A stretch of 62,545 nt of DNA, from contig JAKIML020000057.1 in the NCBI GenBank assembly GCA_022702935.2, positions 1-62,545 of the forward strand. Direction: 5' to 3'. Each line of letters starts with the position of its first letter. Position 1 is the first letter of the stretch. The stretch comes from Bacillota bacterium. GTDB lineage: Bacteria; Bacillota; Clostridia; DSM-8532. A model generated the notes under the pieces. The model was not told the origin of the DNA. It saw only the letters and a list, made by a program, of their open reading frames with translations, and made no database searches. The translations under genes and the position numbers were made by a program. Positions 52,192-55,633 of this stretch are shown piece after piece.

Positions 52192-52220
52192 GAAGAATAC
52201 TGACAGAAAACTGTTAAAAA

Positions 52221-52254
52221 AACGGCTGTAAGACAATAACTTACAGCCGTTTTT
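52221..52254 (+). terminator. terminator after htrA
   Basis: AACGGCTGTAAG (52221-52232) pairs perfectly with CTTACAGCCGTT (52240-52251), followed by T residues. Confidence 0.9.
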
Positions 52255-52263
52255 CATGTTTTT

Positions 52264-52333
52264 CCGCAGTTATTACATTAAAAACCGCAGTTATTACATT
52301 TCAGCCCACAGACCCAATCTTTTTTGCTATATT
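52264..52333 (+). promoter_or_regulatory. candidate AgrA/LytTR operator and promoter upstream of agrB
   Basis: A 16-base direct repeat CCGCAGTTATTACATT occurs at 52264-52279 and 52285-52300. The core GCAGTTATT (52266-52274 and 52287-52295) is separated by 12 bases, a 21-bp period. This is the geometry of LytTR operators; the S. aureus AgrA repeat ACAGTTAAG also has a 12-base spacer and shares CAGTTA. A TATATT (52328-52333) lies 33 bases beyond, with no good -35, as expected of an activated promoter. The leader to agrB would be ~280 bases. Confidence 0.6.
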
Positions 52334-52518
52334 TTTCCCAGAACCTAAACTTCTCCTCCACCCTTACCTTAAAGGTTCACAAAATCCTCCTTCTGTACCG
52401 GATTGCGTGAACAAAAGATAATGCTGGCATACGGGTTCCATAAGCATATGTTCTAGGTTCCCCCCGCAAACAATGTGTGAGTGGTTTAACCCAATGGCAT
52501 TATCAACAACATCCTTAG

Positions 52519-52556
52519 TTTAGTAATAGCGTTGTCCATGCAACGCTATTACTAAA
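52519..52556 (+). promoter_or_regulatory. 16-bp perfect hairpin upstream of agrB
   Basis: TTTAGTAATAGCGTTG (52519-52534) and its exact complement CAACGCTATTACTAAA (52541-52556) flank a TCCATG loop. No T run follows, so simple termination is unlikely. It ends 65 bases before agrB; AGGAGG follows at 52559-52564 but has no usable start. An RNA stability element or a protein-binding inverted repeat are possible. Confidence 0.6.
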
Positions 52557-52621
52557 TCAGGAGGTTGACACCGGGGCTTAAAGCAGTGTTATTCGCGAAG
52601 ATGAGCAAAAGGAGTGGTAAA

Positions 52622-53215
52622 ATGCTTCAGCAGTTTGCCAACGAATTAGCAGGCTATTTGCTCAAGAGGAGAATTGTCAAAGAGGAAGACTATGAAATCT
52701 ATACCTATGGTATAGAAGCCCTCTTGTCGACGCTGGTCAATACTGTTCTGGTTCTTGGCATTGGCCTTGCCCTGGGAATGTTTGTCGATACCCTTATTTT
52801 CCTTTCCGCCTTTGCCATTCTGAGAGTTTATTGCGGCGGCTATCATGCTCGTTCCCATTGGGGCTGCATCCTGACCTATACGGTTCTCTATGGGTGCTCA
52901 ATGCTGATTATCCGCTTTTTACCTGGCTCCTTTGTGTTTGCATTCGCCTTGGCCATAGCGGGGCTGTCCTTGCTGATTATCTTTCTTCTGGCGCCCCTTG
53001 AGCATGTCAACAGGCCCTTCGTAGGGCAGGAATATAAAGTATTTCGTCTGGTATCCCGAATCATTGCTTCCATTGAATTCATCCTTGTTGTCATATTCTT
53101 GCTGCTTAAACACAGACAATTGCTGACCAGCTTAGCCATTTCTTTAGCCATGCTCTGTGTCGTATTCGTGCTAGTTTTTGGGAAAATCAAGCAAAGAGGA
53201 GGTGAAAAAGGATGA
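52622..53215 (+). CDS. agrB: AgrB-like autoinducer peptide-processing endopeptidase
   Basis: 197 residues, multi-pass membrane protein. The catalytic His75 and Cys82 lie in G-G-Y-H-A-R-S-H-W-G-C, with the same 7-residue separation as His77/Cys84 of S. aureus AgrB. It cleaves the C-terminal tail of the AgrD precursor and forms the thiolactone ring. ATG 52622 follows AAAGGAGTGG; the open frame begins earlier at 52565. It overlaps agrD by four bases (ATGA). Confidence 0.93.
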   Translation: MLQQFANELAGYLLKRRIVKEEDYEIYTYGIEALLSTLVNTVLVLGIGLALGMFVDTLIFLSAFAILRVYCGGYHARSHWGCILTYTVLYGCSMLIIRFLPGSFVFAFALAIAGLSLLIIFLLAPLEHVNRPFVGQEYKVFRLVSRIIASIEFILVVIFLLLKHRQLLTSLAISLAMLCVVFVLVFGKIKQRGGEKG

Positions 53216-53358
53216 AAGGGTTTGGTCTGTTTTTAGGAAAGGTTCTTGCAGCTCTGGCACTCTCCGTAGCCTATCTGAGCAATTTTACCGGTTGTCTCAT
53301 ATACATTAATCAACCCAAAATGCCCGAGAAGGTAAGGATGCTTAAGAACCCCATGTAA
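53212..53358 (+). CDS. agrD: AgrD-like cyclic-lactone autoinducer precursor
   Basis: 48 residues read directly from the sequence. An amphipathic/hydrophobic leader (residues 1-20) precedes the segment F-T-G-C-L-I-Y-I (25-32), then N-Q-P-K-M-P-E-K-V, the P-x-x-P-E-type tail conserved in clostridial AgrD. The predicted signal is a thiolactone between Cys28 and the carboxyl of Ile32 (five-residue ring) with a short N-terminal tail. ATG overlaps the agrB stop (ATGA); GAGGAGG lies within agrB. A terminator follows. Confidence 0.9.
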   Translation: MKGFGLFLGKVLAALALSVAYLSNFTGCLIYINQPKMPEKVRMLKNPM

Positions 53359-53393: not shown

Positions 53394-53433
53394 AAAACCA
53401 GCCCGATGTTAACTTCCGTGGCTGGTTTTTTTT
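53394..53433 (+). terminator. terminator after agrBD
   Basis: AAAACCAGCC (53394-53403) pairs with GGCTGGTTTT (53420-53429), with eight T residues at 53426-53433. It separates agrBD from the regulator-kinase pair. Confidence 0.85.
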
Positions 53434-53495: not shown

Positions 53496-53525
53496 TTGAA
53501 AGATAAACAATTCTTCTGGTATGAT
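53496..53525 (+). promoter_or_regulatory. promoter of the agr regulator-kinase pair
   Basis: TTGAAA (53496-53501), 18-base spacer, TATGAT (53520-53525), 67 bases before the response regulator start. ACAGTTGAA at 53492-53500, overlapping the -35, resembles one AgrA half-site but has no partner at 21 bp. Confidence 0.45.
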
Positions 53526-53591: not shown

Positions 53592-54320
53592 ATGAATATT
53601 GCAGTATGTGATGATGAAAAGGTCTTTGTGGATCTTTTTTCAAGTTACATAAAAGACTGTGTCGCGACTCTTGATGACAATAATGATGAATTCTCGATAG
53701 AGTCCTTTTACTCTGGCGAACAGCTTCTGGAGGCCTATAATCAGGGGAAGCATTACGATCTTCTTTTTCTTGATATAAAGATGAAATCTATCAGCGGTTT
53801 TGAGGCAGCCAAGGTCATCCGGGAGAGCGACAGCAAGGTCATCATAGTCTTTATCACTTCTTTGGGAGACTATATTTTAAACAGCTTTGAATTCAAGCCG
53901 TTTTGGTTCCTTATTAAACCTGTCAATGAGGACAAGTTCAAACATGTCTTGCTTAAAGCCATTGCTGAGATAAAAGGCAATAAGACGGGCGAATACTCTT
54001 TTTTTTCAAGGGAGATTGGGCTTGTCAGTCTGCCTCTGAACAGGATTTATTACCTGGAGAGTATTCTGCGCAGAGTCAATATCTATACAAGCAATCAGCA
54101 GTATTCGTGCTATGCCAGTTTAACCGCAGAAGAGCAAAAGCTTAAGAAGTATGACTTTGTCAGGATACATAAGGGCTTTTTGGTGAATATGGCTCAAATC
54201 CAAAGAATCAATAGGCTGAATGTGGTCCTGAAGAACGGTGTTGTCCTACCCTTAAGCGAACATAGGTACAAGACGGTCTATGATAGTTTTACAAGCTATC
54301 TTGCGAGGTGTTCAATATGA
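53592..54320 (+). CDS. LytTR-family response regulator (AgrA-like)
   Basis: 242 residues. Receiver with D7-D8 and phospho-acceptor D61 (L-L-F-L-D-I-K-M), K in L-I-K-P-V; LytTR DNA-binding domain from about 140 (Y-Y-L-E-S, then V-R-I-H-K-G-F-L-V-N-M). LytTR proteins bind paired ~9-bp direct repeats, matching those at 52264-52300. ATG 53592 has CGGGAG upstream; the open frame begins at 53478. It overlaps the kinase start (ATGA). Confidence 0.92.
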   Translation: MNIAVCDDEKVFVDLFSSYIKDCVATLDDNNDEFSIESFYSGEQLLEAYNQGKHYDLLFLDIKMKSISGFEAAKVIRESDSKVIIVFITSLGDYILNSFEFKPFWFLIKPVNEDKFKHVLLKAIAEIKGNKTGEYSFFSREIGLVSLPLNRIYYLESILRRVNIYTSNQQYSCYASLTAEEQKLKKYDFVRIHKGFLVNMAQIQRINRLNVVLKNGVVLPLSEHRYKTVYDSFTSYLARCSI

Positions 54321-55633
54321 TGCACAACATTAGCTGGGTTTTGGTTGAAGCAGGAACATCCACTTTTGAGATTATTCTTCTGTTTACCTATCTTAACGGG
54401 TTCCTGCCTTCAAAGGAGGTTGCCAGGTACAAGAAGATCATTGCATTTTTTGCAGCGGCTATTATTCAGATTTTAGTCAGCGTATACTTTTACAACGAAC
54501 CCAATGTGCTCATCATTAACTACTGTACTCTGGCCATATGCTGCGCACTGCTTCTTTACACGGGAAAGCCGCTCTATCGCATTTTTTCCGGGGTTCTTCT
54601 GGTTGCCGTTCTCGTTGTGGTTGAGCTGATTGCTATCTGCATTATTGTAATGATTCTCAATATTGAATTGCCCCAGGTTCAGGGAGAGCCCTCCTTTAAG
54701 CTGATAGCCGTCATGATCAAGAATATTCTGTCCTTCGCGCTGATCAAGCTCATTACCAATTTCAGAAAATCCAATCTCCGTGAAACCGGACGTGCCTATT
54801 TCGCATTGCTCATGATTGTTCCGCTGATTTGTCTTATCATCTCCCTGCTCATTTTGGAGCTTGTAATTCCCAACGGACCCGATGATATGACCATGGTTCT
54901 TATTGCCTGCCTGGGCCTCATGTATGTCAATGCCGTGGTCTTTACCATCTTCGAGAGCCTCCTTCAGGAGCTTGATAAAACTTACACCTATAAACTCATT
55001 GAAAAACAGTTGGAGCTTCAGCTTAACCATTATAATAAGCTGGCTGAAAACAGAGCCATCCTGTCTGAAACCATTCATGATTTTAAGAATCATCTCAACT
55101 GTATTTACAATCTGTACAAATACAATAACCACGATGAGCTTGGCCGCTATCTGGAGAGCCTGGTCAATGTCTCTGACTCAGAAAAGGTCATCGATACCGG
55201 CAACCCGGTTATCGATGCCCTCTTAAATGACAAGTACAACCTGGCCCGCAAGCTGGGCATAGAATTCAAAAAGGAGCTGAATCTTCCATCCAACCTCAAA
55301 ATTGCCCCAGCCGATATCTGTGTGGTTTTGGGCAACTCACTGGACAATGCCATTGAGGCTTGCAAACGCATCAGGAATCCTGTTTTCCGCCGCGAAATAA
55401 CGCTCTCCATGGCCTATTACAATTCGTATCTGGTTATTGTGGTGGTCAATACCATTGACCAGAAGCCCGAGAAGGAAGGAAGATTCTTCCGTTCCTCGAA
55501 GCCCAATCCCGAACTCCATGGCCTGGGCTTGCAAAGTATTGAACGAACCGTCAAAAAATATGACGGCAATATGGTCTTTGATTACGACGACCCAGGACTG
55601 TTCAAGCTTCAAATTGTCCTTTCCACGGCCTAA
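54317..55633 (+). CDS. GHKL sensor histidine kinase (AgrC-like)
   Basis: 438 residues. About seven hydrophobic segments in residues 5-213, then the kinase core: phospho-acceptor His254 (T-I-H-D-F-K-N-H-L), N-box L-G-N-S-L-D-N-A-I-E-A and G-box G-L-G-L-Q-S. This is the AgrC architecture that detects the cyclic peptide. The order B-D-A-C differs from B-D-C-A in Staphylococcus. ATG 54317 has GAGGTG upstream. It converges with the ATPase gene three bases away. Confidence 0.92.
   Translation: MMHNISWVLVEAGTSTFEIILLFTYLNGFLPSKEVARYKKIIAFFAAAIIQILVSVYFYNEPNVLIINYCTLAICCALLLYTGKPLYRIFSGVLLVAVLVVVELIAICIIVMILNIELPQVQGEPSFKLIAVMIKNILSFALIKLITNFRKSNLRETGRAYFALLMIVPLICLIISLLILELVIPNGPDDMTMVLIACLGLMYVNAVVFTIFESLLQELDKTYTYKLIEKQLELQLNHYNKLAENRAILSETIHDFKNHLNCIYNLYKYNNHDELGRYLESLVNVSDSEKVIDTGNPVIDALLNDKYNLARKLGIEFKKELNLPSNLKIAPADICVVLGNSLDNAIEACKRIRNPVFRREITLSMAYYNSYLVIVVVNTIDQKPEKEGRFFRSSKPNPELHGLGLQSIERTVKKYDGNMVFDYDDPGLFKLQIVLSTA

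Follow-up and report, generated by a model that had tools for sequence, protein, structure and literature searches.

The paired direct repeats upstream of agrB are very likely the operator of the LytTR regulator encoded at the same agr locus, a predicted site that would drive both the production of the peptide signal and an RNA of the RNAIII/SpoZ kind. The sequence-only reading of these repeats as an AgrA/VirR-type LytTR operator finds support in their conservation, in their co-occurrence with the regulator, in the phase of the -10 box and in the putative secreted-protein genes that follow further sites: the repeats have a 21-bp period, they hold a fixed place upstream of a promoter with a poor -35 region, and they are present together with a LytTR regulator across genomes. 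The comparison of genomes supports the operator, its link with the regulator, the -10 phase and the recurrence of a hairpin element. This kind of operator is already known; the in-line succession of operator, RNA and signal genes in clostridia would be a new arrangement, with possibly a new RNA family. The locus predicts an autoinducing clostridial agr circuit in which signal, kinase, regulator, operator and in-line RNA are found in one place; the 21-bp-period motif can serve to search genomes for the regulon, and the RNA offers a defined object for testing.

The features of the locus, all on the forward strand, are collected in Table 1 in the coordinates of the window, by which we mean the whole stretch of 62,545 bases that was analysed. 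The repeats had been described as two perfect copies of CCGCAGTTATTACATT with a 21-bp period and with 12 bases between the copies of the core GCAGTTATT, and both statements are correct. They form the sole exact 16-bp direct repeat within 100 bp across the window, none of 200 dinucleotide shuffles of the window contains such a repeat, and the exact pair has a single occurrence in the home genome (G000). At the TATATT box, which had been said to lack a -35, the promoter scan indeed gave no sigma-70-type match and no consensus -35. The pair does lie upstream of agrB as had been claimed, but it does not adjoin the gene: 321 bases separate the second repeat from the ATG, which itself stands 288 nt past the -10 box. 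Protease domains of the HtrA type were found in the product of the gene upstream of the operator. The presence at the locus of its own LytTR regulator was borne out by domain searches, which gave AgrB, AgrD, a GHKL kinase and a LytTR response regulator all together, the composition of an agr quorum-sensing locus.

Table 1. Features of the agr locus and of the predicted operator, in window coordinates.
Feature	Position	Strand	Evidence and remarks
Intrinsic terminator of the upstream HtrA-type protease gene	52218..52254	+	15-bp perfect stem and T-run; separates the protease gene from the operator
Predicted operator half-site 1, CCGCAGTTATTACATT	52264..52279	+	Exact repeat; conserved in the 22-site alignment A2
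Predicted operator half-site 2, CCGCAGTTATTACATT	52285..52300	+	21 bp downstream of half-site 1; conserved in A2
-10 box TATATT	52328..52333	+	27 nt after half-site 2; without consensus -35
RNA hairpin P0	52375..52412	+	CTGTACC (52393-52399) in the loop; z -3.34
Long RNA hairpin P1/P2	52417..52504	+	C6 run (52460-52465) at the apex; z -3.10 here, -1.19 on a wider window
Hairpin H3, terminator-like	52519..52556	+	16-bp perfect arms, without T-run here; z -9.81
agrB	52622..53215	+	PF04647; AGGAG at 52610-52614
agrD, cyclic lactone autoinducer peptide	53212..53358	+	TIGR04223, 30.8 bits (cut-off 19)
Likely terminator after agrD	53396..53433	+	AACCAGCC ... GGCTGGTT, then Ts; by eye, letters checked
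Promoter-like site before the regulator gene	53496..53525	+	Weak evidence; 10/12 matches
agrA-type LytTR response regulator	53592..54320	+	PF00072 and PF04397
agrC-type GHKL sensor kinase	54308..55633	+	PF14501, 82.6 bits; start codon uncertain

The conservation of the repeats in relatives possessing an agr locus, which had been named as a check, was found in all 11 genomes of the genus with an AgrB match and in the sister genus. AgrB is matched in 29 of 61 genomes, home included, and the family set comprises 32 genomes. Of the 14 in the genus, 12 encode an orthologue of the regulator (E 7.5e-71 or better), as do four of the five in the sister genus. The 21-bp-period pair occurs at the agr locus in every one of these 16 genomes (the 11 of the genus with an AgrB match, G003 and the four of the sister genus), 15 of them by model score (at least 19.3 bits) and G024 by eye only, while the 16 family genomes devoid of the orthologue contain no site above 17.2 bits. 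The distance upstream of agrB is roughly 290-450 nt in ten of the 11 genus genomes. In G013, a second operator at -93 of agrB accompanies the distal one, and in G008 the pair is located about 93 nt before agrB, with the start of the contig another 225 nt upstream. In the four genomes of the sister genus, the pairs lie at about -90 to -104 of agrB; three of these sites have model matches of 19.3-20.0 bits, and the fourth, that of G024, is plain by eye with a model score of just 10.7 bits. There, GCGTTnGTTACATTT stands in five of the eight half-sites, the change being present in both halves. G003 has no AgrB match and carries a 29.1-bit site ahead of its regulator-kinase pair, in a locus flanked, as judged by eye, by genes matching those that flank the home locus. 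As its operator, C-run element, LytTR regulator and kinase have all kept their position (L126, G003:C54:45000-50500), it has the appearance of an agr locus without signal genes.

Between the promoter and agrB, folding of the 221-nt stretch 52340-52560 gives a z of -5.54, and none of 200 shuffles is as stable. We examined 15 agr loci for this structure (the home locus, G001-G008, G010, G011, G013, G019, G028 and G031; G024 was left out, its contig breaking off). A run of six or more Cs on the coding strand is present in 14 of them, G010 being without it. Such runs are not rare singly, as the window holds seven C6 and four G6 runs, and 26 C6/G6 runs were counted over the 117,515 bases of the stretches L119-L138, the C-run element making up about half of them. 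A hairpin surrounds the run in the minimum-energy structures of 13 of the 14 loci (G013 is the exception), and when the run is fixed and its flanks are shuffled, ten of the 14 fall below p 0.05 (G002, G008, G013 and G031 lie above), which yields a combined p of 4e-9 that ignores the relatedness of the loci. The stability of the C-run windows is uneven, with z values of -0.13 in G006, -1.19 in the home genome and up to -8.54 in G003. The CTGTACC motif is found in eight of the 15 loci, three of the sister genus among them; its placement in a loop is weaker, with a combined p of 1.6e-5 and no significance in G006, G007 and G019.

The alignment of eight leaders by MAFFT and RNAalifold gave H3 as the sole structure. 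The covariance model R2, built on four leaders, scored well only on those four and reached no other locus significantly. Pair counts on these four leaders (93.7% of cells paired and 6 pairs changed on both sides, against 30.8-41.3% paired in slid versions) lean toward the model, because its structure was taken from one of the four sequences, and the count of further pair types was no higher than in shuffles (160 of 500). Rfam gave no match at gathering score in the 15 loci and, for the window, no meaningful one with E values up to 1. Since R2 misses the other loci and no Rfam family is matched, what unites the candidate RNA family is a common architecture and position together with two loop motifs, and not one alignment. 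A reading of the leader as a small ORF was rejected, as 12 site contexts contained no ORF of at least 15 codons with a Shine-Dalgarno-like sequence ahead of agrB.

By sequence, the element lies downstream of the operator. It is located between operator and agrB in most of the genus and between operator and regulator in G003, and in the sister genus it comes after agrD, closed by a T-run hairpin, ahead of the regulator gene. The operator could hold and the structured leader nevertheless act in cis only, by attenuation or translation control of the next gene, with no separate regulatory RNA, an explanation that we consider possible though rather doubtful. It accords with the home locus, where H3 has no T-run and agrB comes next on the same strand, with G001, G002, G005 and G011, where a T-run after H3 places a terminator between operator and agrB in the layout of an attenuator, and with the position of the element ahead of the regulator gene in the sister genus and in G003. 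On the other hand, the sister genus has the element behind agrD, and where AgrB has no match it precedes the regulator, so that no single downstream gene goes with it, and in G013 agrB has its own operator, directly before it and downstream of the element. These positions are not explained by a leader of agrB alone, and a regulatory RNA kept in the circuit would fit them.

We tentatively put forward, as a serious possibility still short of probable, that the agr loci of two clostridial genera contain a new family of quorum-regulated RNA, made up of a hairpin with a CUGUACC loop (in a subset), a hairpin with a C-run at its apex and a terminator-like hairpin. This RNA would keep to the locus whether it precedes agrB, as in one genus, follows agrD, as in the other, or stands ahead of the regulator where agrBD is missing, and it would be the effector of the circuit, a counterpart of RNAIII in line with the signal genes, with separate operators for the RNA and for agrB in at least one species (G013). 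An exposed C-rich loop is a feature of RNAIII. In G008, the sole visible operator is the agrB-proximal one; the upstream end of the agr contig of this genome (L134, G008:C386), just upstream of the C-run element, reads like a Nextera adapter and is probably an assembly artefact.

Besides its single AgrB match, the home genome contains four LytTR genes, and the three outside this locus raise the alternative that another regulator, for example one of these proteins, binds the repeats and that the agr regulator acts elsewhere. We consider this very unlikely, as the presence of the operator tracks the orthologue of the agr regulator over the 32 genomes, G003 retains both, and the operator model finds no operator in the stretches around the other three genes. 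When the agr regulator is compared with solved structures, its best match is ComE (41.6 bits), and S. aureus AgrA is absent among the 25 matches listed. The loop of the likely terminator after agrD is too long for the terminator scan, and this feature was judged by eye; the promoter-like site before the regulator gene is the one site that the promoter scan found, against a shuffle mean of 2.7, no excess over shuffles. Together, this terminator and this promoter-like site suggest that the operator probably controls the RNA and agrBD, and that regulator and kinase are probably transcribed apart and made separately. The AgrD peptides of the home genome and of G004, G006-G008, G013, G019 and G031 possess a conserved Cys followed by a C-terminal NQP/YQP...MP..VR motif. 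Their ring residues (CLIYI in the home peptide) are variable between species, so that signal specificity may differ among species.

Alignment A2 contains 22 of the 26 places given by the family pattern search; G001:C5, G006:C17 and G023:C144, with three mismatches each, and G013:C100, whose site sequence is that of home C21, were left out. The 23 matches above 36 bits are the 22 of A2 and G013:C100, so that alignment and operator model agree by construction, and the independent matches of the model are those of G003, of the sister genus and of the weak sites. The conserved word in the operator is GCAnTTATTACATT, and the invariant letters of A2 are A5, T7, T10-A14 and T16 in the first half and G24, C25, T28, T31, C34 and A35 in the second, a motif that we write GCAnTT-N15-GCAnTT-N3-ACA. 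On two points the sequence-only reading needs correction: conservation extends over more than 9 bp, and any of the four letters may stand at the G of CAGTT in A2. The operator core presumably matches the S. aureus repeat, ACAGTTAAG.

Downstream of the motif, a -10-like hexamer (at least 4/6, with A at position 2 and T at position 6) starts 26-28 nt past the second repeat in 28 of 31 sites, and a hexamer of 5/6 or better is present in 22 of the 31; with shuffled tails, the at-least-4/6 criterion gives a mean of 4.6 sites and a maximum of 11. Both the pattern and the operator model stop short of the -10 position, and the phase is therefore independent of site finding. The exceptions are the agr site of G002 (TATATT at 29 nt), home C34 and home C131. 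This layout bears on the highly improbable explanation that the site is the operator of a repressor and not that of an activator, for which we find nothing specific in favour: the site lies just upstream of the would-be -35, with a fixed -10 phase and without a usable -35, as in the AgrA-activated promoters of S. aureus, whose -35/-10 spacing is described as poor (PMC4227749).

Among published layouts, the closest fit is the VirR motif of C. perfringens, CCAnTT-N15-CCAGTT-N3-Cac (PMC4963840). VirR boxes and VR-RNA (PMC4963840, PMC2688746) share the direct repeats with a 21-bp period and a LytTR regulator; CAnTT is kept in nearly all home-type sites, with a leading G here for C and ACA for CAC. 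The agr-like components of C. perfringens are scattered and VirR does not activate agrBD (PMC4963840, PMC10602386), whereas here all the components are in one locus. In C. difficile, the LytTR regulator RgaR acts on direct repeats to activate agrB1D1 and the regulatory RNA spoZ, the critical Gs of its sites standing at -51 and -72, that is, 21 bp apart (PMC10602386). The spacing is shared, but the critical G is variable at the equivalent position here. In that species, moreover, agrBD has no regulator or kinase of its own, RgaS-RgaR does not transmit the signal of the AgrD1 peptide, and spoZ forms a gene by itself, whereas our RNA lies inside the agr locus. In the agr P2/P3 region of S. aureus (PMC4227749, PMC3754575), direct repeats likewise precede promoters whose -35/-10 spacing is poor, and an agr operon goes together with a regulatory RNA; RNAIII is divergent from agrBDCA there, whereas the present element shares the strand of the agr genes, ahead of agrB or behind agrD. 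Literature searches gave no title or abstract that we recognised as dealing with this operator or RNA, which is no claim of absence from print.

That the repeat arose by accidental tandem duplication or belongs to some dispersed repeat has a negligible probability, for although some outside matches of the pattern are tandem repeats (L078, L085) or lie within an ORF (L156), the 200 shuffles gave none, and position, period and -10 phase are kept across two genera, a conservation that contradicts this explanation. In the genome collection, the pair pattern matched 19 stretches, of which 11 are metagenome-assembled records of Clostridiaceae or Ruminiclostridium; their isolate codes presumably denote anaerobic digesters. 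The other eight belong to unrelated bacteria and were rejected: L078 and L085, from one Bacteroidetes bin, consist of tandem repeats of a GCAGTTATTAC-like word, and the operator model matches none of the remaining six at E values up to 1. The single viral-contig match (L156) was also discarded. The reversed pair pattern, in its longer version, had no match in the 32 family genomes.

We infer binding, activation, the transcript ends and the role of the RNA as follows. The activated regulator would bind as a dimer, with each subunit on its own half-site and both on the same face of the helix, since 21 bp make about two turns. The bound regulator would then aid RNA polymerase at a promoter possessing a good -10 box, without a usable -35, some 27 nt further on, and the transcript would start near 52340 in the home genome. 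It would pass through the three-hairpin RNA with its exposed C-run and, as the home H3 has no T-run, readthrough of this terminator-like hairpin into agrB and agrD would be expected, the agrBD transcript ending at the 53396-53433 terminator. Signal production would thereby be autoinduced, a prediction made from the operator only. The RNA itself would most likely be a quorum-induced regulatory RNA working like RNAIII, VR-RNA or SpoZ.

The regulator would also switch on a small regulon of putative secreted products, and with the RNA these recall the extracellular products and regulatory RNAs of the C. perfringens VirR regulon (PMC4963840, PMC2688746). In the home genome, the three-mismatch pattern search gave 9 matches against 19 for the reversed control, which places the weak sites at chance level. 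The sites C34:140524 and C131:66164 are motif-like and have no -10 at 26-28 nt, and C24:21940 has TATTTT alone, at 28 nt; the three were rejected as members. The site at C1:16793 scores 18.9 bits. C81:132 precedes, with a good -10, the gene of a 306-aa putative secreted protein and is a tentative member, its 17.5 bits being about the best score in genomes without the regulator. Signal-like starts of the putative secreted proteins were judged by eye. In relatives, the genes behind such sites encode a matrixin-type protease in G007, a product with weak similarity, below cut-off, to family C92 in G013, and proteins assigned to no family. Besides agr, the home genome has two strong sites. The site at C21:46766 (48.5 bits) precedes the genes of a 122-aa SH3 protein and an M28-peptidase lipoprotein. 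The site at C42:17527 (43.6 bits) precedes those of a 124-aa Tyr-rich protein, a permease of the FtsX/MacB type, a weaker MacB-like permease and an ABC ATPase; the NCBIfam model that fits this ATPase best is that of the lactococcin-972 exporter family, with 225.6 bits, short of the cut-off of 254.85. Lying behind a predicted operator and combining a small, putatively secreted Tyr-rich protein with permeases and the ATPase, this operon (L122, G000:C42:15500-21500) is possibly that of a quorum-regulated bacteriocin.
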